A DNA stretch of 64,000 nt from Limosilactobacillus fermentum. Its GTDB lineage: Bacteria; Bacillota; Bacilli; Lactobacillales; Lactobacillaceae. Shown here piece after piece: positions 4,290 through 35,509 of this stretch; positions within the stretch are counted from its first letter, which is position 1; each line of letters begins with the position of its first letter. The DNA is taken from NCBI RefSeq assembly GCF_013394085.1, contig NZ_CP040910.1, positions 1,533,112-1,597,111 of the forward strand. Reading direction: 5' to 3'. The position numbers and the translations under genes were made by a program. Under the pieces are notes generated by a model, which saw only the letters and a list, made by a program, of their open reading frames with translations, made no database searches and was not told the DNA's origin.

Positions 4290-4361
4290 AATAAAAAGTG
4301 TACAAGTTAAATAGAGACTCTGATTTAGTATAATTAAGGAAGTAAATTGGAGGATCAAATA

Positions 4362-4580
4362 ATGACGAAGCACAGTTATGACAAGGAATTTAAGGAACAG
4401 GCCGTTCAGTATTACTTAGATAACAAGGATCACATGACCATGAATGAAATAAGTAAGAATCTAGGTATTGGGGCTAGTACATTACATAAATGGATTAAGC
4501 TGTTTACTGAGACTGGGGAGTTTGGCCGTGGCTCTGGTAATTTTGCCAGCGATAAGGACAAGGAGCGATCGAAGTATTAA
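4362..4580 (+). pseudogene. IS3 orfA (HTH subunit), internally deleted
   Basis: It starts at the ATG at 4362 behind GGAGG. It encodes the usual HTH (MTMNEISKNLGIGASTLHKWIK) and then ends abruptly in DKERSKY. The expected leucine-zipper end (IEVLKKSIGIL) is encoded immediately downstream, but in another frame (4568-4600). A stretch between the HTH and this segment is therefore missing, and the frame is lost. The frameshift heptamer A_AAA_AAA remains at 4579-4585 but is no longer read in the right phase. Confidence 0.7.
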
Positions 4581-5511
4581 AAAAATCAATCGGGATTCTG
4601 AGCAAGTAACTACCGAAAAGGTGTACCAAGAAATGGACGTTCAGCACGCTTTGGAATCCCACCCTTCCATCAATGGTATGTGTGATTATGTTGGAATCTC
4701 AAGAAGTGGTTACTATCAACGAGAAAAGCGTCATAATCACCAATCACCGCGAAAGCTTCGGAAGAAGTTTATTCAAGGTGAAATTAAAGCAATTTGGCTC
4801 AAAAGCCTTTGTATTTACGGTGCCGGCAAAATCACCCAAGAACTTCGCTCAAAAGGATATAAGATCGCTGAACGAACTGTTGGTAAGTATATGCGTGAAC
4901 TTGGCATTCACGCCGTTTACCTAACCTCTTGGACGACTACCACTCGCAATTCTAAGTTTGATAAACAGCTAATAAATATTTTAGACGAGCAGTTCAATCC
5001 ATTGCGACCAAACGCCGTTTGGTGCATTGACACCACTTATATTCCAGTTCATGACGGATTCGTTTATTTAACCAGTATTATGGACTTGTACTCCCGACGG
5101 ATCATTGGTTGGGACTTATCTGAAACCTTGGAGGTATCGAATGTCATCCCACTTATTGAAAAGACTAAGCACAGTCGCCATATTAGCAAGCCATTAATCA
5201 TGCACAGTGATCGTGGTAGTCAGTTTACGTCTGAAGCTTACAATCAAGTTACAGCTAACATGACATTAAGCTATTCAAAGAAAGCTTATCCTTGGGATAA
5301 TGCCTGCATTGAGTCGTTTCATGCCTTGATTAAGCGTGAATGGATAAATCGGTTTAAAATCCATTCATACTCCGAAGCTAAACGACTAGTTTTTCAGTAC
5401 ATTGAAACGTTTTACAACACAGTTAGAATTCACAGTCACTGTGGATTCAAATCACCAAAGCAACTTGAAGATGAGTATCAAACTCAAATTCAAAATTTAG
5501 TCGTGGCATAG
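4570..5511 (+). CDS. IS3-family transposase OrfB (rve integrase domain)
   Basis: The orfB frame runs through KVYQEMDVQHALESHPSING to the stop at 5511. The DDE core is visible: VWCIDTTYIP (first D), HSDRGSQFTS (second D) and WDNACIESFHALIKRE (E). An HTH_21-like segment precedes it. Natural expression would be by -1 slippage from orfA at 4579-4585. Because orfA is damaged, this part is probably not made as the normal fusion. The same frame is open from 4468, but that part overlaps orfA. Confidence 0.75.
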   Translation, partial: RSIKKINRDSEQVTTEKVYQEMDVQHALESHPSINGMCDYVGISRSGYYQREKRHNHQSPRKLRKKFIQGEIKAIWLKSLCIYGAGKITQELRSKGYKIAERTVGKYMRELGIHAVYLTSWTTTTRNSKFDKQLINILDEQFNPLRPNAVWCIDTTYIPVHDGFVYLTSIMDLYSRRIIGWDLSETLEVSNVIPLIEKTKHSRHISKPLIMHSDRGSQFTSEAYNQVTANMTLSYSKKAYPWDNACIESFHALIKREWINRFKIHSYSEAKRLVFQYIETFYNTVRIHSHCGFKSPKQLEDEYQTQIQNLVVA

Positions 5512-5555
5512 GACAAAAAAGTCTCTATTTAAATTGTCTATTTTATTGACAGGGG

Positions 5556-6149
5556 ACCATACGCGCACGGGGGATTAAAGATATTCAGTTGTTCATCGCC
5601 GACGGTTTAGTTGGACTTCAATCTGCGATTGAGGCTAACTACCCGCAGGCGAAGTTTCAACGGTGCTGGGTCCACGCAGAGCGCAACCTTTTAGGGTACG
5701 TTCGCAAAAACGATCGCAGGGAGATTATCACCGACTTTAAGGCTATTCGGCAAGCAGAGAACCTACAAGCCGCCAAAGAACGATTGGCGGCTTTCAGTGC
5801 TAAGTGGGAGTCCAGTTATAAGCGTCGAATCAAGAATCTAGTCCAAATGGAGGAGCTATTCACGTTCTTCAGTTTTCCAACTGCGATCCGTCAGACCATC
5901 TACTCGACGAACCTAATTGAGTCGTTCAATAAGAGCCTGAAGAAGATGGTCCGACGTAAAGAGCAGTTCCCAAACGAAGGGGCCCTCGATCGCTTTATCA
6001 TGACGCAAGTAATGGAGTACAACGATAAATTTGAGAATCGAGCACATCGGGGATTCAAGGACTGTCACGACACGCTTGATTCGATGTTTTAGAATCGCCA
6101 ATTCATGCGGGCGAAGTTTCCTTTTTTACACAACATTCTTGACACTCTC
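5556..6149 (+). pseudogene. IS256-family (mutator-type) transposase, C-terminal fragment
   Basis: The frame is open from the edge of the preceding IS3 element to the stop at 6092. It has typical IS256-family sequence: LFIADGLVGLQ with the catalytic aspartate, then QRCWVHAERN and RQTIYSTNLIESFNKSLKK. The N-terminal half is lost. Bases 6126-6149 look like an IS256-type terminal repeat and abut a truncated sugar-transporter gene, so this element apparently inserted into that gene. Confidence 0.8.
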
Positions 6150-6319
6150 ACTTGCACGGCCAATATGGCAATCCCATGCAGCCGCTGGTTGCCTCCATCA
6201 ACAGCTCCTTTTGGTGCAGCTACGCCCTTTTGCAGAAGTACAAGGACTGGCCGGTCTTTATTGCCAATGTCCCTGGCATTATCTTCGGCCTGATCACTTT
6301 TGTAACTGCCTTGCACTAA
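6150..6319 (+). pseudogene. SemiSWEET sugar transporter, C-terminal remnant
   Basis: One frame reads GQYGNPMQPLVASINSSFW, then tyrosine- and tryptophan-rich membrane sequence, DWPVFIANVPG and IIFGLITFVTALH before TAA at 6317-6319. This matches the second half of lactobacillar SemiSWEET proteins (three-helix sugar transporters that dimerise): the QPL...N pore segment and the conserved NxPG helix break. The N-terminal helix is missing, displaced by the IS256 fragment. The gene pointed toward the crp/fnr-type gene and once shared its terminator. Confidence 0.65.
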
Positions 6320-6347
6320 GCCGTCTTCATCTTTCTTTTTCGATAGT

Positions 6348-6370
6348 AAAAAATCTCCTCCTAGTAATAA
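6348..6370. terminator. Left arm of a bidirectional terminator split by an IS
   Basis: AAAAATCTCCTCCTAG (6349-6364) is nearly complementary to CTAGAGGGAGATTTTT (8075-8090), on the other side of the IS3 copy. One mismatch and one wobble interrupt 16 pairs. Joined, they form a classic hairpin with A- and T-runs, serving the SemiSWEET gene on the plus strand and the metal operon on the minus strand. The insertion took place in the loop. Confidence 0.75.
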
Positions 6371-6437
6371 GGCTATAATCCCCTTAAAGGTAACAAGTAT
6401 GAAACCCAAGACTTATTATCGCTAGGGGGATTTTTAT

Positions 6438-7149
6438 TTGCCAAGCTATTCGACACTAGATCGGCTATATTTTCTAAGTTGTTATCAGGATTCGGATCTT
6501 TCGATCAAGGTTTTCGCTGATTACAACGGGATCCACGATGGTTCATTACGTCGTTGGATTAAAGGATTCCTTCAGGAAGGAGTACTGGGGGTTAGGCGGA
6601 GCGCGACCAACCGCCATTTTAGTCTATCTCTCTCTTTCTGCGGTTGTCGACTATCAAGATAACGGCTTATCACGCCAGGAAGTGCTTCATAAGTACAATA
6701 TTCGCAGTAATTCTCAACTAACCGACTGGGTTATTCGGTACAATAGTGGCAAACTACTAGCACCGAAAGGCGCAGGAAAGCGGGTTAGGAAAATGGGACG
6801 GAAAGTCAGTTACGACGAAAAGATTAAGATTGTCCAGTGGGCACTTGATCATGACAGTGATTACCAAGTAACAGCTAAGGAGTTCGACGTTTCGTATAAC
6901 CGAGTGTATGACTGGGTTCGAAAATATCAGGCCACCGGTAACTGGGAAGTCTTAAAGGACCGGCGAGGTAAAAAGCCGCGTCCCAAAGGTGACGCTTTAA
7001 CGCGCGAAGAACAGTTAGAAGAAGAGAACCGACAACTCAAGGCAAAAGTTCGGCGCTTAGAAGTGGAGCGAGCTTTCGCAAAAAAATTGAGAGAAATACG
7101 CAATCGGGAGGTGGACGATCCGCAAAATACGAAGCGATTCAGGAACTAG
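6438..7149 (+). pseudogene. IS3 orfA, copy 1, frameshifted
   Basis: Up to SATNR this matches the 237-residue OrfA of copy 2. Then 24 bases (6616-6639) replace 26 bases of the intact copy, and the first frame ends at 6662. The remaining OrfA, with its second HTH (KIKIVQWALDHDSDYQVTAKEFDVSYNRVYDWVRKY) and coiled coil, continues in another frame to 7149. The product is broken, so this copy would depend on transposase from copy 2. Confidence 0.8.
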
Positions 7150-7166
7150 TTAAGGAAGGTTACACA

Positions 7167-8021
7167 GTGACCGAGTTGGCGGCGGTAGCAAACACGTCGC
7201 GTAAGTCATATTACATTTGGCTCAAGAAAAGGCAGATCAAGACCCAGCAAGAAATCGAGAATGCGAAGATTTTGGCGGCGATTCGTCAAATCGAGAAACG
7301 CCATTTGAACTGTGCGGGTTACCGGAAGGTCACGGCCATTCTTAATAGCGATACCAGCAAGATTAAAGAGTACACTTTTAGCTTCGACTTCCCGATTAAC
7401 ATTAAACGGGTCCGGCGGATTATGCGTGAGCACGGGATCAAAGCTGACATTCGCCAACCGCGTCGTAACCGGGTTAAAGAACAACAACAGTACCTTGAAG
7501 ACAATGTATTACATCGCCAATTTGCCCCTGACCAGCCTAATAAGGTCTGGGTGACTGATACTACGGAACTTACTTACGGTCGTGGAAACAAGGTACGACT
7601 GCACGCAATCATAGATTTGTATGGGAACTATGCGCTTAGTTACTTCATATCTCCAACCGAAACCGCCAAGGACGTAATTAAAGCTTTTGAATTGGCTAAA
7701 CAGAAGACCAGTAGGTTGGCTCCGTTAATTCATACAGATCGTGGATCTGCCTACACTTCAAGGGAATTCAGTAATTACCTTATCCAAAACCAATGCGTCC
7801 ACAGTATGTCAGCGCCGGGGACCCCGGCTGATAATGCGGTAATTGAGCGCTGGTGGTGTGACTTCAAACATCTGTGGCTGGCACACCAGCCAGCGCCTCA
7901 AACGTATGACCAACTCTTAAAGTTAGTGGCAGAAGGCGTTAAGTACTTCAACACCGTTGAAATATCCGGTAAAAGAAAGAATCTCACCGCTGTAGATTAC
8001 TACAGAAGTGAGATTGCATAA
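7167..8021 (+). CDS. IS3-family transposase OrfB, copy 1
   Basis: This 284-residue integrase-like transposase is identical to that of copy 2. Its DDE residues lie in VWVTDTTELTYG, HTDRGSAYTS and ADNAVIERWWCDFKH. The reading frame is open upstream through AKYEAIQELVKEGYTV to A_AAA_AAA at 7080-7086. That heptamer sits in the correct phase for -1 slippage from orfA, so the real product is probably an OrfAB fusion. The GTG at 7167 is only a formal start. Confidence 0.85.
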   Translation: MTELAAVANTSRKSYYIWLKKRQIKTQQEIENAKILAAIRQIEKRHLNCAGYRKVTAILNSDTSKIKEYTFSFDFPINIKRVRRIMREHGIKADIRQPRRNRVKEQQQYLEDNVLHRQFAPDQPNKVWVTDTTELTYGRGNKVRLHAIIDLYGNYALSYFISPTETAKDVIKAFELAKQKTSRLAPLIHTDRGSAYTSREFSNYLIQNQCVHSMSAPGTPADNAVIERWWCDFKHLWLAHQPAPQTYDQLLKLVAEGVKYFNTVEISGKRKNLTAVDYYRSEIA

Positions 8022-11469: not shown

Positions 11470-12324
11470 TTATGCAATCTCACTTCTGTAGTAATCTACA
11501 GCGGTGAGATTCTTTCTTTTACCGGATATTTCAACGGTGTTGAAGTACTTAACGCCTTCTGCCACTAACTTTAAGAGTTGGTCATACGTTTGAGGCGCTG
11601 GCTGGTGTGCCAGCCACAGATGTTTGAAGTCACACCACCAGCGCTCAATTACCGCATTATCAGCCGGGGTCCCCGGCGCTGACATACTGTGGACGCATTG
11701 GTTTTGGATAAGGTAATTACTGAATTCCCTTGAAGTGTAGGCAGATCCACGATCTGTATGAATTAACGGAGCCAACCTACTGGTCTTCTGTTTAGCCAAT
11801 TCAAAAGCTTTAATTACGTCCTTGGCGGTTTCGGTTGGAGATATGAAGTAACTAAGCGCATAGTTCCCATACAAATCTATGATTGCGTGCAGTCGTACCT
11901 TGTTTCCACGACCGTAAGTAAGTTCCGTAGTATCAGTCACCCAGACCTTATTAGGCTGGTCAGGGGCAAATTGGCGATGTAATACATTGTCTTCAAGGTA
12001 CTGTTGTTGTTCTTTAACCCGGTTACGACGCGGTTGGCGAATGTCAGCTTTGATCCCGTGCTCACGCATAATCCGCCGGACCCGTTTAATGTTAATCGGG
12101 AAGTCGAAGCTAAAAGTGTACTCTTTAATCTTGCTGGTATCGCTATTAAGAATGGCCGTGACCTTCCGGTAACCCGCACAGTTCAAATGGCGTTTCTCGA
12201 TTTGACGAATCGCCGCTAAAATCTTCGCATTCTCGATTTCTTGCTGGGTCTTGATCTGCCTTTTCTTGAGCCAAATGTAATATGACTTACGCGACGTGTT
12301 TGCTACCGCCGCCAACTCGGTCAC
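11470..12324 (-). CDS. IS3-family transposase OrfB, copy 2
   Basis: This 284-residue DDE integrase is identical to the copy 1 protein. The catalytic residues are in VWVTDTTELTYG, HTDRGSAYTS and ADNAVIERWW. The frame is open upstream to the seven-A slippery site at 12405-12411, so it is probably made as an OrfAB fusion by -1 frameshifting. Confidence 0.88.
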   Translation of the reverse strand: MTELAAVANTSRKSYYIWLKKRQIKTQQEIENAKILAAIRQIEKRHLNCAGYRKVTAILNSDTSKIKEYTFSFDFPINIKRVRRIMREHGIKADIRQPRRNRVKEQQQYLEDNVLHRQFAPDQPNKVWVTDTTELTYGRGNKVRLHAIIDLYGNYALSYFISPTETAKDVIKAFELAKQKTSRLAPLIHTDRGSAYTSREFSNYLIQNQCVHSMSAPGTPADNAVIERWWCDFKHLWLAHQPAPQTYDQLLKLVAEGVKYFNTVEISGKRKNLTAVDYYRSEIA

Positions 12325-12341
12325 TGTGTAACCTTCCTTAA

Positions 12342-13055
12342 CTAGTTCCTGAATCGCTTCGTATTTTGCGGATCGTCCACCTCCCGATTGCGTATTTCTC
12401 TCAATTTTTTTGCGAAAGCTCGCTCCACTTCTAAGCGCCGAACTTTTGCCTTGAGTTGTCGGTTCTCTTCTTCTAACTGTTCTTCGCGCGTTAAAGCGTC
12501 ACCTTTGGGACGCGGCTTTTTACCTCGCCGGTCCTTTAAGACTTCCCAGTTATCGGTGGCCTGATATTTTCGAACCCAGTCATACACTCGGTTATACGAA
12601 ACGTCGAACTCCTTAGCTGTTACTTGGTAATCACTGTCATGATCAAGTGCCCACTGGACAATCTTAATCTTTTCGTCGTAACTGACTTTCCGTCCCATTT
12701 TCCTAACCCGCTTTCCTGCGCCTTTCGGTGCTAGTAGTTTGCCACTATTGTACCGAATAACCCAGTCGGTTAGTTGAGAATTACTGCGAATATTGTACTT
12801 ATGAAGCACTTCCTGGCGTGATAAGCCGTTATCTTGATAGTCGACAACCGCTGCCACTTTTAGGTCAATTGAATACCGGCGGTTGGTCGCGCTCCGCCTA
12901 ACCCCCAGTACTCCTTCCTGAAGGAATCCTTTAATCCAACGACGTAATGAACCATCGTGGATCCCGTTGTAATCAGCGAAAACCTTGATCGAAAGATCCG
13001 AATCCTGATAACAACTTAGAAAATATAGCCGATCTAGTGTCGAATAGCTTGGCAA
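12342..13055 (-). CDS. IS3-family OrfA, copy 2 (two HTH domains)
   Basis: The 237 residues carry one HTH near the N-terminus (SIKVFADYNGIHDGSLRRWI), a second around 70-95 (LSRQEVLHKYNIRSNSQLTDW), a third repeat-like segment (YQVTAKEFDVSYNRVYDWV) and a C-terminal coiled coil. Such proteins bind the inverted repeats. The slippery heptamer A_AAA_AAA lies within the codons for AKK near the end. Translation begins TTG or ATG-like at 13055; the upstream GGGGG could act as RBS. Confidence 0.8.
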   Translation of the reverse strand: MPSYSTLDRLYFLSCYQDSDLSIKVFADYNGIHDGSLRRWIKGFLQEGVLGVRRSATNRRYSIDLKVAAVVDYQDNGLSRQEVLHKYNIRSNSQLTDWVIRYNSGKLLAPKGAGKRVRKMGRKVSYDEKIKIVQWALDHDSDYQVTAKEFDVSYNRVYDWVRKYQATDNWEVLKDRRGKKPRPKGDALTREEQLEEENRQLKAKVRRLEVERAFAKKLREIRNREVDDPQNTKRFRN

Positions 13056-13132
13056 ATAAAAATCCCCCTAGCGATAATAAGTCTTGGGTTTCATACTTGT
13101 TACCTTTAAGGGGATTATAGCCACCTTTAACA

Positions 13133-13333
13133 ATGGATTTTATTTTCTGGTATCACGGTATTAGATATATCATTACCGCTGCCTACGGTGACGGTGGCTA
13201 CATGATTGCCGAAGAACTCAGCGGAAAATTCATAATTCAAAACAAGAATTTTCGTAAGTTGGTAGAAGACGTTCCCCTGTTTGAAGGCAAAACTTTCAAG
13301 GAACTTTTGCCCGATTCAGACGTAGAATATTAG
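13133..13333 (+). CDS. Hypothetical protein, 66 aa, possibly 5'-truncated
   Basis: A short acidic protein (MDFIFWYHGIRYIITAAYGD...DSDVEY) starts 11 bases beyond the IS3 copy. I do not recognise it. There is no convincing ribosome binding site before the ATG because that DNA is the IS end, so the original start may be lost. A terminator-like hairpin follows at 13350-13392, which supports a once real gene on this strand. Confidence 0.45.
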   Translation: MDFIFWYHGIRYIITAAYGDGGYMIAEELSGKFIIQNKNFRKLVEDVPLFEGKTFKELLPDSDVEY

Positions 13334-13771
13334 TTCATCAACCAAAACAAGCATCCCTGGCAGGATAACTTTCTTGCTAGAGATGCGTTTTTCGTCCAAT
13401 TTTGCCCGATTTTGAACGAAAGAGCAAATAATTGGACAAAAAAGTCCCTTCACGCTTAAACATGAAGTGACTCTTCTTTATCTTAGTCGGTAACTTAGTC
13501 GCTTATCTTGGTCGGTTGACCGACTAAGTTATTCTTTCGTCAGCACGGTCACGCATTCAACATGCCACGAGCTGAGTTGGTCAATTACACATTCTCGATT
13601 AACCGCTAACTATGGCGATTTTTATTGTCTAGCTAAATGCAGCATATCTGTTTACACGGGCCTAAAATGTTTGTTTTTTATGGATCCCGCGGATAGGTAA
13701 TAGCCCTCCAGTTTTGCTTGTTTGCGGGAACAAATACGTTTATAAATAGGCATTAAAGCGTTTGTGGAAAA
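13334..13771. other. Non-coding region with several hairpins
   Basis: No open frame of interest is seen here. A hairpin AGTCCCTTCA/TGAAGTGACT (13443-13472, one mismatch) has T6 on its minus-strand side and could end the defence operon about 300 bases after its last gene. AACTTAGTCG/CGACTAAGTT (13492-13530) is a perfect inverted repeat enclosing a second palindrome, TCGGTTGACCGA. From about 13620 to 13771 the sequence is AT-rich with no structure I can name. Confidence 0.4.
13350..13392 (+). terminator. Terminator-like hairpin after the 66-aa gene
   Basis: GCATCCCTGGCAGG (13351-13364) pairs imperfectly with CTTGCTAGAGATGC (13373-13386), with one or two mismatches and wobbles. GTTTTT follows. 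Confidence 0.55.
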
Positions 13772-14107
13772 TCAAAGTCTAAATCCAATGTTTGCCTGAT
13801 GGAATTCATCAAGATTCCAGTGCAGCAATCTAAGAGGCATTTTGCCAGCTGTAAAATGCAAATGAGTAAAGAATCCCCGATAATTAGATAAATGTACATT
13901 GCTATTAACTGCTGCTTCATTCTTTTGCAAAGTCAACACGTGATACTCTTTATTTGCAAAATTTTTTAAAATGATGAATTTCCTCATTGCTTCATGCTCA
14001 TCCGTTTCAGCTAGTTGCTCAAGCTGTGAAGCCTTATTAACCATGTAATCCACTCGTTCTTGTAATTCTTCTTTAGTTGTATTAACTGATGGAACAATAG
14101 TTTCCAT
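13772..14107 (-). CDS. Unknown 111-aa protein, last gene of the defence operon
   Basis: I do not recognise the family. The N-terminal half is charged and probably helical (KEELQERVDYMVNKASQLEQLAETDEHEAMR). The C-terminal half is rich in His, Phe and Leu (FFTHLHFTAGKMPLRLLHWNLDEFHQANIGF). GGAGA precedes the ATG, which lies 14 bases beyond the helicase stop, so it is very likely co-transcribed and may be a partner or inhibitor of the proteins before it. Confidence 0.6.
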   Translation of the reverse strand: METIVPSVNTTKEELQERVDYMVNKASQLEQLAETDEHEAMRKFIILKNFANKEYHVLTLQKNEAAVNSNVHLSNYRGFFTHLHFTAGKMPLRLLHWNLDEFHQANIGFRL

Positions 14108-14121
14108 ATTCAGAATCTCCT

Positions 14122-16014
14122 TTATTTATATCTCCCCATGACAATATCCTTAACTTCTTGCAGATAATCATCAGTATATTCTGGCACAAGCAATTGGCCA
14201 TCAATGGCATCGATCATAACCTTTTCTTTGTCCTTCAGCTTCTTGTACACCGTACTGTCAATAAAGCCCATGTGGGCAACATCACCCTTAGTCATCAGAT
14301 AGTAATACCGAGTATACTGATTAGCTGGAAGTCCCAAACGGTTAATCCGATCACGCGATTGCAACATAAAAGTAAGATTGAAGTTGTATTCGAAGTAAAC
14401 CGCATCGTGCACCGTCTGATGGAGCGAAATAGATTCACCTAACGTATTAGGATTAGAAACCAATACCTGGGCATCACCAGTACGGAAATTGTTAATCATT
14501 CCTTCACGGTCTTGCTTTGGAGTGGCCCCATAAACCAAGGTTGTTTTAATTCCCATATCGTTGAGAGTATCAGTGATCTTCTGCATGGTGCCAACAAACA
14601 TCCCCCAAACCAGGACTTTTTTACCTTGGCTAACCAATTTGTCAATCAAATCAATACCCATTTCAAACTTAGGAGATTCAACTTTAGCTAAATCATACTT
14701 CTTATAAGCATCCCCACTGCTGGCATTTTCTTTTTCCACAGTTGAAGCTTGCTTATCCCAAACACCAGAGTCGGCATCTACAAGGCCTAACTCTTTATAG
14801 TTAATGTTGGTTGCTAGTAATTCTGGATTAGTTGAAGCTTGCAACAGTCTAATGAAAGTTGCCAAAGTCCCATTTTCGGTTTCATAAATAGCCTGTGACA
14901 GCATCTGCTGATTCTTTGATGGTTCAACTTCTTTAATAATATCTGGATCTGGTTTAGGGACATGTAGATCTTTCTTGTTGGTCCGCCAAAAGAACGGCGA
15001 TAATTTCTTATTTACATCTTCTGGATCAATATTATTCAAAGTTGTTAAATCCCAAGCAAAGAAGGATGAGTATTCATCAGGGTACATCAGATGTAGGAAG
15101 TTATAGATGTCCCTAAAGCCATTCGGAATTGGTGTCCCCGTTAGAACATAGCGGTAGTGTGGTGTCTGGCTTAAACTCAATGCTGCCTTGGCACGCTGGC
15201 CACCGACTCCTTTTACCCGGTGAACTTCGTCAAAGACTAACATAGTTTTGGAATCCAACAAGTCATTAATGATGTTCAGCTTACTTTGTAAAGATTCGTA
15301 GTTGATGGTGATCACGTCAGCCTGGACCCAGTCGTGCTTAATAGCACCGACATTATTGTTGTATTTCTTATCCCGCATATTGAGGTAATGCAACTTACGC
15401 TTAGGACCAAACACAGCTTCAAATTCTGTCCGCCAAGCAGCAAAGGCGTTCAGTGGTGAAACAACTAACAGTTTATCTACTTCATTTACCCTTGGGCTAG
15501 ATAGATAGGCAAACGTGCCATACATCATTGCCGTTTTACCAGCACCAGGTACTGAAAAGTTGGCCGCTCGTTTCATGATAGTCATGAAGAAACTAGCTTT
15601 TTCTTGCTCTGGCTTAAGCGGACGCGTAATTTCTTGACTAACGACCGCTTTGAAGTTATCAAACTCATGTTGCCAGCGAGGATCACCATCTTTGATAGTT
15701 AAACCAGCCTGACTTTGTTCCTTAATATAATACTGACGCTGTTGAACAAAATGATTAAACTTGTTGCTAGTCTGAACCTCAGGTAACCCTTTACGTTGCA
15801 GACGCCTATTAAGTTTCTTAACTAATTCAAGCAGTTGAACGTAAGTTAAATCTTCCTTAAAGGTTCGCTGTCTCGGATCTTCAAAGTACGGCCTAAAAAT
15901 AGCTAAGCCACGCTGAGCTGTCTTTGACTCCAGTGTATGGTTACTATCATCTAGTAGTTGGAAGAAACCGTCATTATTCTTAATAATGATTGGACTATCT
16001 GATTTCGTCTCCAT
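14122..16014 (-). CDS. SNF2-like DEAD/DEAH-box helicase of the defence operon
   Basis: The translation is 630 residues from the ATG at 16014, which overlaps the end of the ParB-like gene by 20 bases; a GTG at 16033-16035 is a less likely start. Motor motifs, counted from this ATG: Walker A VPGAGKT (155-161), DEVH (262-265), LTGTP (291-295) and helicase motif VI QSRDRINRLG (552-561). These place it with SNF2/Rad54-like translocases. The first 130 residues match nothing I know. No nuclease motif is seen. It probably moves along double-stranded DNA in the service of the neighbouring restriction proteins. Confidence 0.85.
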   Translation of the reverse strand: METKSDSPIIIKNNDGFFQLLDDSNHTLESKTAQRGLAIFRPYFEDPRQRTFKEDLTYVQLLELVKKLNRRLQRKGLPEVQTSNKFNHFVQQRQYYIKEQSQAGLTIKDGDPRWQHEFDNFKAVVSQEITRPLKPEQEKASFFMTIMKRAANFSVPGAGKTAMMYGTFAYLSSPRVNEVDKLLVVSPLNAFAAWRTEFEAVFGPKRKLHYLNMRDKKYNNNVGAIKHDWVQADVITINYESLQSKLNIINDLLDSKTMLVFDEVHRVKGVGGQRAKAALSLSQTPHYRYVLTGTPIPNGFRDIYNFLHLMYPDEYSSFFAWDLTTLNNIDPEDVNKKLSPFFWRTNKKDLHVPKPDPDIIKEVEPSKNQQMLSQAIYETENGTLATFIRLLQASTNPELLATNINYKELGLVDADSGVWDKQASTVEKENASSGDAYKKYDLAKVESPKFEMGIDLIDKLVSQGKKVLVWGMFVGTMQKITDTLNDMGIKTTLVYGATPKQDREGMINNFRTGDAQVLVSNPNTLGESISLHQTVHDAVYFEYNFNLTFMLQSRDRINRLGLPANQYTRYYYLMTKGDVAHMGFIDSTVYKKLKDKEKVMIDAIDGQLLVPEYTDDYLQEVKDIVMGRYK

Positions 16015-17287
16015 ACTTACTGAACAACTCCTCACTTAGTTGATTCAAGTCACGCATGTATTTTTGCAACTCTTTTAACTGGTCTTCACTCACTTCGTTA
16101 TAACGAAGGCTCCCAATGAGGCCACCATCTTCGTTTAAGTCATGATAATATTTCACATTTTGCTTAATGTTACGAATGAATTTATCGACGGACTCACTGT
16201 TCCGTGCGTTCCGCATATAAGTATCAAAAGTATCTCCTAGGGCTTCAACCGTATCATTTTCATCAGTTAAACTTTGCATTAAATCAGAAGTGGTATGAAT
16301 TTCATCATCCTGTAGTGATTCAGACAGATCATCAACAATGTCCGCGACATCATCATTAAAATCTTCGTTATCGACGCTGTTGACAACATTTTTCCCATAT
16401 TCACGAATATGAGTTCTGGCGGTATTCCCGCTAACACCAACATGAATCTGGTAAAGAATCACACCGAAGTATGAGTTCATGGTTTCATTCTTACGAACCT
16501 GCGATTCTGAATCATCACCAAAGTTCTTTGAAAGTGACTTTCCCATTTCAAGAAACAGCGACCAGACCTTACTTTCCTTGATGATGTTGAAGCTATTTTC
16601 CGGAGCTCCAATAAACTCCAGAAACTTCTTCATGTAAACGGCACCATCATAGTATTTCTTAACCTCAGTTGGCCGCATATGAGAATCCGCAGCATAGTCC
16701 GCCTGAGTCATGATCGGATCATCGCCGCCAGTAGTTTGATAAATGTCAACAGCTAAGTCAACCGGATCATAATTTTGCCGTTCTTCAACACCCATCTGAA
16801 TAGCCAATTCCAGGTTTTTGATCTTAGCTCGTTCAGTTGAATTGTCATATGAGAATGGTAATACCACGGCTTCAAAATAAACTGTCCTACCAGTTGACTG
16901 GTGAATATTCCGTAAAGCAGTGAAGCGCCGATTACCATCGACAATTCTTCCATCATCAAGAACATAACCATATACCTGCTGTCCAGATTCCTGAATTGAT
17001 TTTTCTGTTCGTTTCAGTGCTGATGAATTATCCTTCTCAATTAACTTAGCAACAAAATTGTTATATTGTGGGTCCTCATGGTCATTTGCTGGGTGCAGCT
17101 CATCATGATACTGAGAAATGCCTGTTGCGATCCGACCATTCTTATCATTGTAATAAAGGTATTCCAACGGAATTTTATAGACATCCAACGTCTCGGAACT
17201 AACACCATCCACCTTAATTGGTAGCTTAGGCTTAGCTCCTGTTTTCTCTAAATTTCCTTCTTTAGCTAATTCAATTAGCGACAGCAT
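15995..17287 (-). CDS. ParB/Srx-fold protein of the defence operon
   Basis: The 430 residues include a ParB-like N-terminal domain with VYGYVLDDGRIVDGNRRFTALR (about 106-126), the G-x-R-R phosphate-binding motif of the ParB/sulfiredoxin fold. The C-terminal half is acidic and helical (DDVADIVDDLSESLQDDE), with no centromere-binding HTH evident, so a plasmid-partition role is unlikely. The ATG lies one base after the res stop codon and the gene overlaps the helicase gene, implying translational coupling. Such domains bind or hydrolyse nucleotides or cut DNA in other systems; which applies here is unknown. Confidence 0.75.
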   Translation of the reverse strand: MLSLIELAKEGNLEKTGAKPKLPIKVDGVSSETLDVYKIPLEYLYYNDKNGRIATGISQYHDELHPANDHEDPQYNNFVAKLIEKDNSSALKRTEKSIQESGQQVYGYVLDDGRIVDGNRRFTALRNIHQSTGRTVYFEAVVLPFSYDNSTERAKIKNLELAIQMGVEERQNYDPVDLAVDIYQTTGGDDPIMTQADYAADSHMRPTEVKKYYDGAVYMKKFLEFIGAPENSFNIIKESKVWSLFLEMGKSLSKNFGDDSESQVRKNETMNSYFGVILYQIHVGVSGNTARTHIREYGKNVVNSVDNEDFNDDVADIVDDLSESLQDDEIHTTSDLMQSLTDENDTVEALGDTFDTYMRNARNSESVDKFIRNIKQNVKYYHDLNEDGGLIGSLRYNEVSEDQLKELQKYMRDLNQLSEELFSKYGDEIR

Positions 17288-17288
17288 C

Positions 17289-20264
17289 CTAATTCAACTC
17301 CCCGTTTTCCAACTTATTAATCAAGGCATGCACCTCTTGTTCACTAGTAGCCATTCGATAATAAACCCCTGATTCCTGCAAATGATCAAAGTACTTTTGC
17401 TGAATAATTCGAATTTCTTCATCACCCAACCGCATGTTTTCAGCTTTAGTTTCAATCACTAAATAAATTGGCTTATTACCATGTTCAATCTTAAAGATAA
17501 AGTCAGGTGTAGTCGTTCCGTTATCAAAGCGCGGAATCTTAATAGCCTTTTTTGGTAATTTCCCAAAGACACTAATCTTCGGGCCATACGACCGTTGTAA
17601 AATTTTTAATTCTGGATCAGCACTGTCATAACGCAGCGGTGGCCGATCATACAAGTACTTTTCATCAGAAGTCGAATCTGACTGGTATACACCAAGTACG
17701 CTAGCCGGAACCGAATCCACAAACTCTTGCTTTTTAGCATTGTAAATCGATGTTGAAGATGAAAAGTTCAGTGGTTCATAGCTATAAGAAGTCTTAATTC
17801 GTTCATTAAATTGATTGTTAAAAGTGCGAATTAAATTGCCAAGTGTCTTCTCATTGATGTAGTTAGTATTATTTTTCAAACGCTTAATCGCTTTGATCAT
17901 CAAATTGTTAAGCAAATTAACCGGTAAATCAGTACCCTTAGCCAAGAGTTTAAGAAATTTACCATAATTCATGGTTAAGAATTCAGTACTATAATCCGAC
18001 TGCGTTTCCCGAACGGAAGCCACATTCTCATCAGTTACCACTTCTTGGTGAACCACCTGCGGCCGTTGCAAAACAAAGATCTTATTATCGCTATCGTTAA
18101 ATACGTTCCGAGCCACCGTTTCGGCATCCTGATTAACCGATGGATCAAACTTGATCATTTGCCGCTTAGCCAATTGCAGCCACAAATTCTTCAATTGCTG
18201 CCAATTTTGCTTGCGTAACTTAACAGTTGTGCTGTCTTTTGAATTTTTATCTCGAACCTTATCATTAGCAACTTTAGTTTCTTGAACTAATTCTGGATAA
18301 AGATGACACAAAGCATCATAGCCAGCCATCGATTGACCATCTAATTCAACGTTTTCTTTAAATTTGTTAGAACGAGTAATCACATTATGGGCATCTAAAT
18401 CATCAAGTAGCTGATTCTCATCAAACTTAGGATCAATTTTTTGTTTAGCTTTAACAATCAGCTTGATCATGTCATCAGTTAATTCTTCTTGGTTCAGTTT
18501 TATCGGTGAATCATCATTAATTTCACCTACTAACTTTTGAGCGAAATCTCGTTCATCATAACCAATTAAGAAAGATAGACGACTCTGCCACTCATCCTGA
18601 TTCAAACGGTGACCAGTTTCATCAACCGGAAGCCGTAAACCACGACCAACTTCCTGAATCTTACTAATCTCGGAACCGGAAGTACGTAACTTGGCAATTG
18701 TGAAAACATTTGGATTATCCCAACCTTCACGCAGCGTCCACTTTGAAAAGAGGAAGCGACGAGTTAGCCAGTTACCATCTTTATCCTTAAAGCTGAGCAG
18801 TTTTTCCTTATTGCTGAGGATATCTTCAACTTCAGCCTGAATGTCGGCATCAGAACTGCCCCGATCTTCACTGAAATAACCAGCATAAACGTCCTGATGT
18901 TCTGACTGCAAGCTCTTCAAGGTAGCCTGTAAGAAAGAGCGGTACTCTTTTTCCCGATCATCAATCGCCAATTCAAAACGATCAATTAATTTCTTGAGTT
19001 TCTTGGTTAAAATAGCCTCAAAGTGATGAGCAAGCCAACCCTTACCACTGTTTTCGCCACGGAAGCTGGAAATACTATCAATAAAGAATAAGGATAGAGT
19101 CTTAATCTTTGGAGCATTCTCCCCTGAATTTAAACGTAGGAAGTTTTCTTCTTCAGCCTTAAAGTGACAATCTAATGCCTGTGAGATAATTTCATCCTGA
19201 TAGTTTTCCGCAAAGGTACCAGGAATCAATTTCATGTCTTTAGATAAAGCTAAACCATTAGAAAGTTCCCGGTCAGTCCCACCAGCATAAGTAATATTAC
19301 CTTCAAAGCCAGCATCCACATCAGCCAGATTTTCGCCTACGTTTAATGAATAGTCTTTGCCACCCTTGGTCAAAACTAATTCTTTAGCTTTGACTTGCTT
19401 AACTTTATACAAGTTATTTGCCTGTTCTTCTGGCATATCAGGATAATCAATATCGATACCCTTAACCAGGCCCTGGTTGAAACTGTCCACGGCGTCCAAG
19501 TTAAACTGAGGTTCACCACGATAGTAATCAACCTTAGTGACTTTATTCTTCCCCCGACCAGTAGTTGTTTCCGGGAAGGTAGCACCAAAACGCACAATTA
19601 ATTGGGGCTTCATTTCTTCGATATCTTCGTAGAACTTTTTTCCTCGTGGAAAGCGTTGTGGTTCGTCGATAATTATTACTGGCCGAGTGGCAGCAATCGC
19701 TTTGATTGGGGAAGTTTCACCACCCAGCAAAGTTTGATCGTAGTCATCATGGTGCATGGATTTAGAGTGCAGCATCCCCTGATTAACTAACAATACTTCA
19801 ATTTGGTTTGCATTCTGCCGAGTTGCTTCAACAAATTCAGACAGTTGCGCTGGAAAGTTGCGCCGTCCTGAACGCGCACTAAAATCACCCGCGTTGATGA
19901 CATTTAATTGGATCCGGGTATTTTCATAAAATTCGCTAAAGTGCTGCTTAGCATAATCGCTACTAATAAAGCTACGAGTACCTTCTTTAATACTTGGGCT
20001 AGGCACTGCAATGACAAACTTAAAGAGCCCATACTTTTGGTGCATTTCATACATCATCCGGGTGTAGACATAGGTCTTCCCAGTCCCCGTCTCCATCTTG
20101 ATGTCAATATTGGCTTTATCCCTATAACGACACCTAATTAGTGGATTAGCATAAATGTAATTAGCATCTGGATTATTACTCATGGTATCCATGCCTGGGA
20201 AAGCTTTATCAATGGCGGCTAGGGCATCAGTTTGGTGTTGTAAAGTTTCTAGTTTAATCTTCAT
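17289..20264 (-). CDS. res: Type III restriction endonuclease, Res subunit
   Basis: This 991-residue superfamily 2 motor-nuclease cleaves DNA when complexed with Mod and unmodified head-to-head sites are met. Motifs: Walker A METGTGKT (57-64), DEPQ as motif II (200-203), SKIQEVGRGLRLPVD as motif VI, and a C-terminal PD-(D/E)xK nuclease with PDF (920-922) and ETK (939-941). Length is typical. The ATG is 3 bases beyond the mod stop codon. It appears intact. Confidence 0.95.
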   Translation of the reverse strand: MKIKLETLQHQTDALAAIDKAFPGMDTMSNNPDANYIYANPLIRCRYRDKANIDIKMETGTGKTYVYTRMMYEMHQKYGLFKFVIAVPSPSIKEGTRSFISSDYAKQHFSEFYENTRIQLNVINAGDFSARSGRRNFPAQLSEFVEATRQNANQIEVLLVNQGMLHSKSMHHDDYDQTLLGGETSPIKAIAATRPVIIIDEPQRFPRGKKFYEDIEEMKPQLIVRFGATFPETTTGRGKNKVTKVDYYRGEPQFNLDAVDSFNQGLVKGIDIDYPDMPEEQANNLYKVKQVKAKELVLTKGGKDYSLNVGENLADVDAGFEGNITYAGGTDRELSNGLALSKDMKLIPGTFAENYQDEIISQALDCHFKAEEENFLRLNSGENAPKIKTLSLFFIDSISSFRGENSGKGWLAHHFEAILTKKLKKLIDRFELAIDDREKEYRSFLQATLKSLQSEHQDVYAGYFSEDRGSSDADIQAEVEDILSNKEKLLSFKDKDGNWLTRRFLFSKWTLREGWDNPNVFTIAKLRTSGSEISKIQEVGRGLRLPVDETGHRLNQDEWQSRLSFLIGYDERDFAQKLVGEINDDSPIKLNQEELTDDMIKLIVKAKQKIDPKFDENQLLDDLDAHNVITRSNKFKENVELDGQSMAGYDALCHLYPELVQETKVANDKVRDKNSKDSTTVKLRKQNWQQLKNLWLQLAKRQMIKFDPSVNQDAETVARNVFNDSDNKIFVLQRPQVVHQEVVTDENVASVRETQSDYSTEFLTMNYGKFLKLLAKGTDLPVNLLNNLMIKAIKRLKNNTNYINEKTLGNLIRTFNNQFNERIKTSYSYEPLNFSSSTSIYNAKKQEFVDSVPASVLGVYQSDSTSDEKYLYDRPPLRYDSADPELKILQRSYGPKISVFGKLPKKAIKIPRFDNGTTTPDFIFKIEHGNKPIYLVIETKAENMRLGDEEIRIIQQKYFDHLQESGVYYRMATSEQEVHALINKLENGELN

Positions 20265-20267
20265 GGG

Positions 20268-22199
20268 TTAGTACCTCTTGATTAAAGTTACTTTACTATC
20301 CAACTGCTTTAAACCATTTTCAAGTTCACGCAGTTCTGCTACATTAAATGAATAGCCAAAGATAACTACACTTTGTACTTCTAATTGGTGAGTACCAAGT
20401 TGGTTGAGTAATTCTTTAGTTTGGCTTGCTCCCCAACCTTCATTAATCAAGTAAAGTCGATTATCTTCAACTTTATGTGCGGTGTAGTTATCAAATTTAA
20501 CTTCTTCAACATCAGTATCAAACGGGTAACCATCCTTGGCAAGCCAAGTGGTAAGAATTGTTTCTTCCCCAGTAGCATCCCCATCAATACCCAAGCTTTT
20601 ACTTGAAAAGCCATCAACCATATCGGTAAACAGGTTAGTGTTGTTAGGATTGAAGTCCTCAATTTCTTCAAGAGTTTGTTTAACAGGTTTAACTACACGA
20701 TAATGCTTAAAGCTGCCATCAAAATTTTGGGGCAAAGTTAGTTCATTGTCATCACGGATCTTTTTGGCAGCGCGCCGAATTCGTTCACGAGAAATTTCAT
20801 CAATAGACTTAAAGCCAGCATCATATGCAACTTTTGCCCCTTTAACAGGAACTGTTTTACCATCTTTATTCCGATGGTATGTTTTTTCCGGGAGTTGTAC
20901 CATGATGAAACGCCTATTTGCTGTATCTTCGGCATTTAATTGCATTACAGCATCGGCAGTCGTTGCTGATCCAGCAAAAAAGTCCATTACTATTTCCGAA
21001 TCTTTGGAAGTGTACTTAATTAACTTTTTTACCAAAGAAGTTGGCTTAGGGTAACTAAAGCATTTTTCGTTAAAAAGCTTTATTATCTCATTAGTCCCAT
21101 CTTTGGTAGTCCCAACATTCCTTAATATTGAACTTGGAGTTTTAGAATCCCCTTTTAAAATACGTTCTTTAAGAAACAACTTTCGTTTAGGGGACGAGTC
21201 ATTATTCATACCAAACTTTATTCTCCCATCATCCATTAATTTTTTAATACCATCTCTGTTAAAAGCCCAAATCCTATTGTGAGGAGGAAAATATTCTTTA
21301 CCAGTATTTGGATTGGTAATTCCAAAAACAGTATCACCACCAGCTTTGTTTGCATCCAGAGGGGTTAATTTCCAAGGGCCTCTTGGATCATTGTCAGGAT
21401 TTTTATATTCTCTTGAACTTAATGGATCTCCATACCACTGAAGTTGTTGAATATCTTTTGCGTAGACCAAAATGTAATTATGATTTAAGGATATTGGTGA
21501 ATCATTAGATATCGATGTCCTAGACTCCCATATAAATGTATCAACATAATTTGCTTCACCAAAAATCTCATCACAAATATTTTTTAGATTAGAAAACTCA
21601 TTATCATCTATGGAAATAAAGATTGTACCCTTAGAGGATAGCATTCTCTTTGCAAGAACTAATCTCGGATACATAAATGTCAACCAAGCCGAATGACTTG
21701 AACTTCCTTGTATTGATTTAAGTCTTTCAACTTGCTCATCCTCTAATCCAAACATTTCTTTTATCTTATTATCTGAATATTCAAAAGAATCGGGATACTC
21801 AAAATCATTACTTCCAGTATTGTATGGTGGATCAATAAATATAGTATTTATTTTATTTAAATAACCTACCTCCAAGTGACGAAGAACCTCTAAATTATCC
21901 CCAGTAAAGAATAAATTTTTGCTATTCTTACCTTCACCTTGATTCTGCTTTTCATCGGGCACAATAACAGTACTTGGCATTTCACCAGCCTGACGACGAG
22001 CGTAATCTTTACCAATGAAACCCAGCTGATAACCCTCACTCAGCTCATTAACATTCTTATCTTTTAGTTGGTTCCTAAACTTATCCAGGTCAAACGAACC
22101 ATCCTTCGTAAAAAATTCTGGAAGCTTTGCTTTCAATTCATTAAGAAAGGCGCTGTTTGGCTGCACAGTTTCATTGTATTTTTCATTATCCGTTTGCAT
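20268..22199 (-). CDS. mod: Type III DNA methyltransferase, Mod subunit
   Basis: I chose the ATG at 22199 (643 residues) because TAGGAG lies nine bases upstream and the earlier start at 22247 would overlap the XRE gene. It is an adenine methyltransferase of the beta class: DPPYNTGS (motif IV, 123-130) precedes the AdoMet motif MDFFAGSATT (405-414). The central region between them is the target-recognition domain, so the specificity cannot be predicted. I see no simple-sequence tract in the gene that would suggest phase variation. It partners Res directly downstream. Confidence 0.95.
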   Translation of the reverse strand: MQTDNEKYNETVQPNSAFLNELKAKLPEFFTKDGSFDLDKFRNQLKDKNVNELSEGYQLGFIGKDYARRQAGEMPSTVIVPDEKQNQGEGKNSKNLFFTGDNLEVLRHLEVGYLNKINTIFIDPPYNTGSNDFEYPDSFEYSDNKIKEMFGLEDEQVERLKSIQGSSSHSAWLTFMYPRLVLAKRMLSSKGTIFISIDDNEFSNLKNICDEIFGEANYVDTFIWESRTSISNDSPISLNHNYILVYAKDIQQLQWYGDPLSSREYKNPDNDPRGPWKLTPLDANKAGGDTVFGITNPNTGKEYFPPHNRIWAFNRDGIKKLMDDGRIKFGMNNDSSPKRKLFLKERILKGDSKTPSSILRNVGTTKDGTNEIIKLFNEKCFSYPKPTSLVKKLIKYTSKDSEIVMDFFAGSATTADAVMQLNAEDTANRRFIMVQLPEKTYHRNKDGKTVPVKGAKVAYDAGFKSIDEISRERIRRAAKKIRDDNELTLPQNFDGSFKHYRVVKPVKQTLEEIEDFNPNNTNLFTDMVDGFSSKSLGIDGDATGEETILTTWLAKDGYPFDTDVEEVKFDNYTAHKVEDNRLYLINEGWGASQTKELLNQLGTHQLEVQSVVIFGYSFNVAELRELENGLKQLDSKVTLIKRY

Positions 22200-22209
22200 C
22201 AAATTTCTC

Positions 22210-22455
22210 CTATTCTTCGTTAATTGGCACAGTTTCACAAATGTCATTAAGATCGCAATCTAAGCCAGTGCATATCTTCATCAAAAGATCCGTAGTTACG
22301 TTAGCATCTTTTCCTAACTTAGCAACGGAAGCAGCACTAATATCGCATTCAGCTTGTAAATCTTTTTTCTGTAATCCCCTGTCAATCAACAGTTTCCACA
22401 ATTTCTTGTAACTAACCTTGTATTTAATTTTTAAGTTATTTAGTTGCTTGCTCAT
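22210..22455 (-). CDS. XRE-family HTH regulator of the defence operon
   Basis: This 81-residue Cro/CI-type repressor starts at the ATG at 22455 behind GGGAG, overlapping the end of the DUF2326 gene. HTH: LQKKDLQAECDISAASVAKLGKD, then TTDLLMKICTGLDCDLNDIC, as in the short YozG-type regulators. A position directly before mod is typical for controller proteins of R-M systems. Which promoter it controls cannot be told, since the operon's 5' end is lost. Confidence 0.8.
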   Translation of the reverse strand: MSKQLNNLKIKYKVSYKKLWKLLIDRGLQKKDLQAECDISAASVAKLGKDANVTTDLLMKICTGLDCDLNDICETVPINEE

Positions 22456-22987
22456 TCCATGATCTCCCAAACAGTTCTTTACCACCACGTTCGAGTGTCA
22501 AAACCGTATTTTCTCTAATGATCTCTTGCGCCTTTTCTGATAATACTTCAATACTATCAATTGAAATAAATATCTGCTTAGTTTCTTGAGCATACATTTC
22601 AATAATTCGATTTCTACGATCAATCTCAATATTTGAAAATAGTAGTGAATCATGAACAAAGAATGGTAAACGTGTTAAGTCAAGACAAGCTTGATCAAAA
22701 ATAATTAATCCTTTGAATGATGTCCCTGTACCTTGGTCATTAATCGTCTCAAAATTGTATCCTGTTGGTTTTAATTCAATTCGTGGCGGTTGAAATGAAC
22801 TTGATCCGCAGACCTGCTCGTTTAAGCTAGCCATTTCAGTGTTCAAAGAGTGCTGTACCTCTGCCAATTCAGTATTGATGGTCGCTTTTAAGGCATCTTG
22901 CTGATCTTTCTTGTCTTGTTGTAGTTTTTTCTTCTTCCCGGATTTAAAATCTAAGTGCAACAAGTTCAAATTATACAAATAGGCCAT
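22436..22987 (-). pseudogene. DUF2326-containing protein (ABC-3C type), C-terminal fragment
   Basis: The fragment shows the DUF2326 core: GTSFKGLIIFDQACLDL, LPFFVHDSLLFSNIE, TKQIFISIDSIEVLSEKAQEII and RGGKELFGRSW. In complete proteins this follows an SMC-like ATPase with coiled coil; here a lysine- and glutamine-rich coiled-coil piece remains at the N-terminus. The ATPase part is missing because an IS30-family element begins at about 22990. Such proteins belong to ABC-3C defence loci. The rest of the gene is not found on the far side of the IS. Confidence 0.75.
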
Positions 22988-22989
22988 GG

Positions 22990-24104
22990 AGACCTAAAAT
23001 TAAAGTGCTGAAACTCTAAAGAAAGGATATCTCCATGACCCAATCCAAGCATAGCACTACCAAGCATTATCAACAACTTACCCCGGAAGAAAGAGGTGAA
23101 ATTGAAGCGTACTTGAATGCTGGGAAATCTCAGGCTGATATTGCGCGCCTGACCAATCGCAGTCGCAGCACGATCTCGCGTGAAATTAAGCGTGGCACCA
23201 TTCGACAACGTAATTCTGACTATCTCTTTTTCACCAAATACTTTGCGGACACGAGCCAGCTTATTCATGATAAAGCGCGTCAGAACTGCCGTTTTGGCGG
23301 ACTAGAAAAGGTCTGCTGGCTGTCCTTTAAGATGCTTAAAACAGCGCTTAAACGGCGACCACGGATTGATAGTGTTGATGGTTTCGTGCACGCCTTTAAG
23401 CAGACTCATCCTGACCAGCCGTGCCCTTCAACGCCGACCGTTTATCGGTATATTGATCAAGGCCGCTTAGACATTAAGAATATCGACCTGCCAGCCAAGC
23501 TGCGGCGCCATGTAAAGTCCAATCGTCACAACCACTCGCGTAAAAATAAGCGTCTGGCTGGTACTTCGATTGATGAACGACCAGACACTATTAATAACCG
23601 TGAACGCTTTGGTGATTGGGAAGGTGACCTGGTTAAAGGCAAGCGTCAAGCCAGTGAACCAGCACTGATGACCCTGACCGAACGGTGAGTCCGCTATGAG
23701 ATCATCGTCAAGATTCCCAACTACCACGCAGACACCTGCTTAAAAGAGCTTCAAGCCACCATTGACCAGCATCCTGGCTACTTTAAGACCATCACTTTCG
23801 ATAACGGCTCTGAGTTCAAACTGTTGGACCAGGTTCAAGGAGCTCAGATCTACTTTGCGCACCCGTACTCGCCTTGGGAACGTGGCAGTAATGAAAACCA
23901 GAATGGCCTGATCCGAGAGTACATCCCTAAAGGCCTATCACTACATGGCTTCTCTGAAGATGATATCGCAAAGGTTCAAGATGCGCTGAATCAAAAGCAT
24001 CGCAGGACACTCGGCTACGCTAACGCCGCCGAGCTTATTGAGGCCGCGCTAGCAAGCTAGCTCACGGTCTGGCTCCATGGTTGTTGCACTTGAGTTGACA
24101 TTCC
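22990..24104 (+). mobile_element. IS30-family insertion sequence
   Basis: Imperfect inverted ends are seen at about 22990-23012 (AATTAAAGTGCTGAAACTC) and 24080-24104 (reverse complement AACTCAAGTGCAACAACC). Boundaries are approximate. It truncates the DUF2326 gene on its left and abuts the chromosomal rlmD terminator region on its right, so it marks the junction between accessory and core DNA. Confidence 0.65.
23035..24060 (+). pseudogene. IS30-family transposase with one nonsense codon
   Basis: The frame is otherwise continuous for about 341 codons. It starts MTQSKHSTTKHYQQLTPEER with an HTH (SQADIARLTNRSRSTISREI) and has the DDE residues in FGDWEGDLVKG, TFDNGSEF and GSNENQNGLIRE. A TGA at 23686-23688, in TLTER*VRYEIIV, cuts it in two. 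This is a single-base-type lesion, so the element is recently inactivated unless the stop is read through. Confidence 0.85.

Positions 24105-31185: not shown

Positions 31186-35509
<4,324 letters not shown>

Follow-up and report, generated by a model that had tools for sequence, protein, structure and literature searches.

A ParB-like protein and an SNF2 translocase form a co-inherited pair beside a type III restriction-modification system and other methylase and nuclease partners

The nuclease of SauUSI is a PLD domain, and CglI/NgoAVII systems combine a nuclease of PLD-B3 make-up with a methylase of the C5 type. The available parts of the literature describe an ATPase that drives translocation and shredding in SauUSI, cooperating nuclease and helicase proteins in CglI (PMC7913695, PMC4267653), and, for PbeABCD, a set with a related helicase that can stop replication without cutting (PMC6459918). 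Restriction types are defined by their own subunits; a two-gene motor that is inherited as a unit with changing methylase and nuclease partners cuts across them. Here we analyzed such a motor in a 64,000-nucleotide stretch of Limosilactobacillus fermentum (assembly GCF_013394085.1, contig NZ_CP040910.1, positions 1,533,112 to 1,597,111; hereafter the window). An operon on its minus strand encodes, in order, an XRE regulator, the methyltransferase Mod and restriction subunit Res of a type III restriction-modification (R-M) system, a ParB-like protein, an SNF2 helicase, and a protein of 111 amino acids (111 aa). A plain type III annotation names mod and res only, leaving half of the operon unread. 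The first-pass annotation had described these six genes as lying on one strand with small gaps or overlaps, as they do: res and parB are 1 base apart, parB and the helicase gene overlap by 20 bases, and 14 bases, with an AGGAG preceding the ATG, separate the helicase gene from the 111-aa gene. Where overlaps appear longer, this comes from calling open reading frames (ORFs) from the earliest start.

A ParB profile (A1, 11 rows) was searched in 396 genomes of the family and 398 of the class, a few being common to both. Matches occurred in 23 of the 396 and 17 of the 398, the window's genome being the only shared positive, giving 39 distinct loci (38 regions and the window). An SNF2 gene directly followed parB in 37 of these 39, both with and without mod-res, which answers the check on homolog co-occurrence proposed in the first-pass annotation. 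Two loci lacked a following SNF2 gene: L105 holds a remnant of 94 aa, and the L106 match (43 bits) lies at the end of a contig. Among the 37, parB was cut by a contig end in L090, and ParB and SNF2 occupied one open frame in L101 (1817-4891; 1024 aa). This frame is either a real fusion or a draft-assembly indel, and because one indel in a draft contig could produce it, we did not take it as proof. A second parB with no helicase after it was present in L097 and L099. The reverse search, using the window helicase at E up to 1e-30, found 26 of the 396 family genomes, and 23 of these were exactly the ParB-positive set, with near-full-length matches. The other three (G056, locus L122; G191, L121; G286, L119) held C-terminal helicase fragments only, as did a second place in G197 (L120). 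At this threshold, no near-full-length helicase without parB was found among the 396 genomes. The remnants start at about residue 448-472 (L119 8716-9270, L120 7565-8044, L121 7287-7772, L122 7588-8280), with no parB there. Distances in the ParB and SNF2 trees correlated at 0.956 for 41 chosen pairs, against a best of 0.384 in 500 label shuffles; these were quick trees without bootstrap, and they omitted near-copies, broken genes, L092-L094, L101, and truncated loci. The ParB-like protein and the SNF2 helicase are a tightly linked, co-inherited pair.

The 111-aa gene does not belong to this unit. The first-pass annotation had joined all three extra genes into one linked module; the parB-SNF2 part stands, and we rejected the three-gene version, as homologues of the 111-aa gene occurred in only 5 of 29 type III loci (the window, L003, L011, L014, and L071; 32-71% identity in the four others). 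These 29 loci are the window plus 28 that were scored for intact genes, with L108 ending at the helicase. A further homologue followed the helicase remnant in L119. The 111-aa protein matched no family above cut-off in Pfam, PADLOC, or NCBIfam.

For the ParB-like protein, we found no Pfam match above cut-off and none in PADLOC or NCBIfam. The predicted structure has a ParB/Srx domain at residues ~33-168, a probable helix-turn-helix (HTH) at ~170-285, and then the tail. Compared structurally by VIA-align 2, which covers the folds in its own list, it models as a nucleotide-binding domain of the ParB/Noc/KorB type, the HTH being only probable. The conserved Arg motif of the ParB/Srx superfamily accompanies this fold. 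Alignment to the host's own Spo0J/Noc by hhalign gave 49.5% probability (E 1.7e-4); GNRR replaces their GERR, and the Asn of ENLQ is also not conserved. No ParB was among the matches of a PDB profile search with the ParB alignment, the top one being kinesin at 0.079. Weak ddrB-ParB matches, below cut-off, were seen in two relatives. PMC10952713 gives the DUF262 (GmrS) motif, which is of the D-G-x-x-R type.

The neighboring helicase carries an SNF2 core (Pfam SNF2-rel_dom, 1.2e-20, and Helicase_C) with Walker A, Walker B, and motif VI. Every motif noted in the first-pass annotation is present, namely DGNRR in the ParB-like protein and PGAGKT, DEVH, and QSRDRINRLG in the helicase. Among solved structures, it is closest to SNF2 chromatin remodellers and to an Snf2/Rad54-family helicase; structure prediction for the window protein was poor (pLDDT 52.9).

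Judged by sequence, Mod and Res are both complete and make up an ordinary type III system of the EcoP15I-like kind. Mod is an N6-adenine methylase with an EcoP15I C-terminal domain (Pfam N6_N4_Mtase 6.7e-36 and T3RM_EcoP15I_C 7.4e-30; PADLOC MTase_III 710 bits). Res combines an SF2 helicase (ResIII) with a C-terminal endonuclease domain (RE_endonuc 1e-9, residues 868-972), and it matched NCBIfam NF012027 (1387.6 bits; cut-off 564), PADLOC REase_III, and the EcoP15I Res structure 4zcf (3.2e-108). Used as a query, the window Res had matches in 41 of the 396 family genomes. A close Res (at least 43% identity, near full length) occurred in 19 genomes; the gene is broken in G131, and a G392 fragment (73% over 99 residues) was left out. 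The ParB-SNF2 pair was present in 14 of the 19 and absent from five (G001, G017, G026, G034, and G131; regions L112-L116). A Res type of ~30% identity had no adjoining pair in the two regions examined (L117 and L118). Because of these five genomes and the pair loci that are not type III, Mod-Res exists without the pair and the pair without Mod-Res.

We tentatively read the operon, with confidence just short of even, as a type III R-M system fitted with a plug-in translocase module in which an SNF2 motor is paired with a ParB-like DNA clamp gated by nucleotide. The reading builds on observed gene order, co-inheritance, partner swapping, and conserved motifs and on the modelled ParB fold, from which we infer clamp loading, nucleotide gating, translocation, and the restriction outcome. 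Mod would provide the self mark, and Mod-Res site recognition and cutting. The ParB-like protein would load on DNA lacking the mark, either by its HTH or by contact with Mod-Res, sense nucleotide, and license SNF2 to move along duplex DNA. The motor might then carry a nuclease to its target or stall phage replication. In this operon the nuclease would be Res; in relatives that role would fall to a PLD domain carried on the motor itself or to a free-standing enzyme resembling MutH/Sau3AI, BglII, or BanI. On paper, and by analogy, relatives with a nuclease on the motor would behave like SauUSI or CglI.

Partner genes were counted within 9 kb of parB. Of the 39 loci, 15 had Mod and Res, 13 had a C5-methylase, and 11 had neither; four of these 11 are truncated or fragments (L090, L101, L105, and L106) and seven are not (L092-L095, L097, L099, and L100). 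Since Mod-Res is replaced by C5-methylases in this way, the pair is not confined to type III systems and switches its methylase and nuclease partners. The 13 C5-methylase loci also contained Vsr (7), a MutH/Sau3AI-like protein (6), and a NO VEIN protein (3), and ten of them had a long SNF2 (849-906 aa), i.e. a fused PLD nuclease. By comparison, about 22 C5-methylase genes were counted in 61 family genomes (~2 Mb each), two of them beside the pair, which by arithmetic gives a chance near 0.3% of finding one within 9 kb on either side. Methylases adjoin the pair far above this base rate.

Three classes of locus could be distinguished. Class A (mod-res-parB-SNF2, helicase ~620-650 aa) was found in Lactobacillaceae, Enterococcus, and Lactococcus and includes L107 and L108, which are type III and not of the PLD class. 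Class B has an SNF2 of ~850-906 aa with an N-terminal PLD nuclease domain, often near a C5-methylase, Vsr, and a MutH/Sau3AI-like nuclease, and in some loci a large HTH protein with a C-terminal part resembling one of these nucleases. Pfam PLDc_2 was matched in all four long relatives scanned (three above cut-off), and an FHxKxG-type PLD pattern was present in 20 of 21, the exception being L085. Two loci, L097 (parB at 6703-7923 and 12837-14081) and L099 (6092-7336 and 12256-13470), have tandem parB genes with a single PLD-SNF2 gene; in front of each parB, a large protein is encoded whose C-terminal part is Sau3AI/MutH-like. Class C consists of parB, SNF2, a NO VEIN (DUF3883) protein, and a C5-methylase, joined in some loci by Vsr and an enzyme of a BglII-, BanI/DpnII-, or PD-(D/E)XK-like type; its members are L102-L104 (Bacilli), Mesorhizobium, and Streptococcus phage Javan191. 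A Kozakia plasmid has parB, SNF2, and DUF3883, with no methylase listed within the 10.5 kb shown. Three Enterococcus plasmids have a large gene, annotated as a sigma-factor-like HTH protein (two) or hypothetical (one), followed by parB and a short SNF2. A Bradyrhizobium match, with no SNF2 adjoining parB and a helicase four genes further, was left unclassified.

Class A forms a single clade in both trees (100* and 98*), near the class B clade with C5-methylases, and Mod-Res therefore probably joined the pair once. The PLD domain may have been lost in class A or gained elsewhere, as the long form is also missing from class C and the Enterococcus group. A PLD nuclease fused to relatives of the helicase makes 'a second line of attack on DNA recognised by Mod-Res', one of two functions suggested in the first-pass annotation, seem a better guess than the other, a pure control layer. 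On the broadest reading, the pair would be a general, previously undescribed restriction plug-in, with a ParB nucleotide-switch clamp from the chromosome-partition machinery loading on DNA without the host methyl mark and handing that DNA to the SNF2 motor. It would serve at least three unrelated partner sets (type III Mod-Res; C5-methylase with a MutH/Sau3AI-like protein and a PLD-SNF2 fusion; C5-methylase with NO VEIN and a BglII/BanI-like enzyme) across Bacillota, Alphaproteobacteria, and a streptococcal phage. We consider this generalization possible but somewhat doubtful.

The same counts bear on whether ParB-SNF2 is instead an independent defence unit beside R-M systems, which in the type III class would share an operon, and not a mechanism, with Mod-Res. 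The pair lacks Mod-Res in 22 of 37 loci, one of which (L090) lies at a contig end beyond which Mod-Res could lie, and the seven untruncated loci above have no methylase within 9 kb. Five of the 19 close-Res genomes do without the pair, and in L126 matches to res break near residue 244 while two neighboring parB-helicase copies are intact. However, all 15 type III loci from the genome sample keep the order mod-res-parB-helicase (in some, mod or parB is broken or truncated at a contig end), and both trees unite the type III pairs in a single clade, which suggests an old and stable partnership. The excess of methylases near the pair also speaks against independence, which we regard as unlikely, if still worth serious weight.

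Gene decay offered a further view of ParB function. The 28 scored type III loci include some near-copies, and some breaks may be assembly errors. In L009 and L013, parB is broken while mod, res, and the helicase gene are intact; in L071 and L108, which have identical ParB, mod is frameshifted near a run of six G while res, parB, and the helicase gene are intact. These patterns fit neither ParB acting as an antidote nor the presence of a lethal nuclease that works independently of Mod. Frameshifts in mod coincide with internal runs of six to eight G in L108 (2159), L071, and L003 (6209), a hint that Mod may be phase variable; L003 has breaks in parB and the helicase gene as well.

These decayed loci are also relevant to a control layer, in which the ParB-like protein would be a DndB-like regulator or nucleotide sensor limiting Mod-Res or the motor, and SNF2 a remodeller clearing Mod-Res from self DNA. 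The probable HTH of the ParB model would suit such a role. There are analogies in DndB (PMC10853773) and in the SNF2 protein DarB of phage P1, which shields DNA in cis from type I enzymes; proteins of this kind also contain DdrB-like ParB domains (PMC5512222). However, because L009 and L013 retain the other genes despite a broken parB, parB is not required to restrain them. The intact res, parB, and helicase genes beside a frameshifted mod in L071 and L108 count against it as well, and a PLD nuclease on the motor of long relatives suits an attacker. Overall, a regulatory role appears improbable.

Plasmid records of the pair number 67, and 61 of these plasmids are predicted to be mobilizable or conjugative. 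The carriers include dairy and fermentation bacteria, where phage resistance has practical value. Scanning viral_contigs with profile A1 yielded five type III loci, and scans of the same set with class B ParB found no relative. One 42-kb L. plantarum plasmid (L126) has three parB-helicase copies (3958-7123, 18001-21166, and 31748-34894), two of them intact, surrounded by IS30 transposases and split res. Such mobility would fit a pair that shields its own plasmid or island from other restriction systems, or that takes part in Osa-like plasmid rivalry. The sub-cut-off ddrB-ParB matches, the ParA-family genes adjoining the pair in an Exiguobacterium plasmid, and a match to phrog_62 DNA helicase (3e-61) point the same way. 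Complete R-M operons in 15 of 39 loci and chromosome-like copies, e.g. the window's own on its genome's single 1.9-Mb contig, argue against element protection, which we judge very improbable.

The operon (Table 1) stands out from its surroundings. G+C is 0.34-0.41 across the block (13-22 kb), compared with 0.50-0.53 on the left (7-12 kb) and 0.52-0.55 on the right (23-28 kb); values are lowish, too, over the window's first 7 kb (0.38-0.46). An IS30-like ORF (23035-23688; HTH_38) and an IS3-like pair (11470-13055) flank the block, which, given these ORFs on both sides, appears acquired. Two IS3-type transposase ORFs in opposite orientation (7167-8021, plus strand; 11470-12324, minus strand) have 284-aa products that look identical, and they enclose an apparent CRP-like regulator and cation-transporting ATPase, as read from the ORFs with no family scan. 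The XRE regulator, which scored 68 bits against NCBIfam NF000090 (below the cut-off of 150), accompanies DUF2326 and mod in some loci only. Directly upstream of XRE and mod, beside the IS30-like ORF, the DUF2326 gene is reduced to its C-terminal third. The DUF2326 copy in L069 scored 38 bits against PADLOC LmuB and 69 bits against PDC-M68B.

Table 1. Positions of the operon genes and the adjacent DUF2326 remnant in the window
Feature	Position	Strand	Basis or remark
XRE/VanU-like HTH regulator	22210-22488	minus	GTG start; internal ATG at 22455 is the start used in the first-pass annotation
mod, type III N6-adenine methyltransferase, EcoP15I-like, 659 aa	20268-22247	minus	Pfam, PADLOC
res, 991-aa restriction subunit of the type III system, with helicase and C-terminal endonuclease domain	17289-20264	minus	Pfam, PADLOC, NCBIfam, 4zcf
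ParB-like protein, 430 aa: NTP-binding ParB/Srx domain, probable HTH, helical tail	15995-17287	minus	predicted structure
SNF2-family DNA translocase, 630 aa, lacking the PLD domain that longer relatives have	14122-16014	minus	ATG start; longest frame from GTG 16035
111-aa protein, optional companion	13772-14107	minus	ORF; no family above cut-off
DUF2326 C-terminal remnant	22436-22987	minus	full gene is 551 aa in L001 and L004

Comparison with named systems placed the ParB-SNF2 combination outside them. Its mismatch with the DISARM, BREX, Dnd, and Zorya gene sets, asserted in the first-pass annotation, was confirmed by Pfam, PADLOC, and NCBIfam on the window proteins, and PADLOC and NCBIfam contained neither an exact match nor a named system for this combination in the proteins scanned. 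DISARM, Zorya, Dpd, and BREX share an SNF2-like motor with the operon but no other component among seven window proteins. Against PADLOC the helicase scored 67 bits for ZorD, 52 for DpdE, 38 for PbeA, 32 for DrmD, and 26 for BrxH, the ZorD and PbeA matches lying in helicase stretches only; against NCBIfam it scored 29.7 for DrmD (cut-off 610) and 19.6 for DpdE (cut-off 500), with no ZorD or BrxH model listed. Apart from such sub-cut-off DrmD helicase matches, DrmA, DrmB (DUF1998), and DrmC were not found among the operon proteins, nor were ZorA, ZorB, DndCDE, or PbeC among the seven scanned, nor PglZ/BrxZ and BrxC among the window proteins scanned. DndCDEA-PbeABCD shows a likeness through the class B SNF2 of L085, which scores 243 bits for PADLOC PbeA, best over its PLD part. 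It differs in its Pbe partners (SMC-like PbeC and two small proteins) and its phosphorothioate mark, and the available part of its description does not mention ParB (PMC6459918).

Further likenesses lie among restriction enzymes and ParB proteins. SauUSI shares a PLD domain ahead of the helicase with the longer SNF2 relatives, but in the sources available it is a single enzyme recognising methylated target DNA, whereas here a ParB pair lies beside a methylase and the window helicase lacks PLD. In CglI/NgoAVII, as in the PLD class, a methylase, a nuclease protein, and a helicase-like ATPase act together; its helicase is of the DEAD family, and the three genes described in the available sources include no ParB, whereas in the window the methylase is of the N6 type, the motor is SNF2, and a PLD domain is absent. 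ParB/Noc/KorB, DdrB-like ParB, and GmrS DUF262 proteins share the ParB/Srx domain, a D-G-x-x-R type motif, and, in the model, a probable HTH. From these, the ParB-like protein is set apart by GNRR in place of the GERR of the host's Spo0J/Noc, by SNF2 as its usual neighbour, and by the lack of a ParA gene in the window operon. The question this raises is whether a ParB-type nucleotide switch gates DNA translocation in defence. In the parts of the literature available, which besides the papers cited above include PMC12839542, PMC6098607, PMC2292703, PMC3710099, PMC13335696, PMC4260502, and PMC3459991, we found no description of the pair with Mod-Res, and papers on lactococcal plasmid systems and the lactococcal defensome (PMC11381338 and PMC12418389) may contain a match. 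Like EcoP15I and EcoP1I, the operon has full-length Mod and Res with methylase and endonuclease domains; unlike them, it has two extra co-inherited genes, absent from 5 of 19 close-Res genomes. Mod-Res is known as a plain type III system, and what appears to be new, its priority not being assured, is the accessory ParB-SNF2 translocase module.

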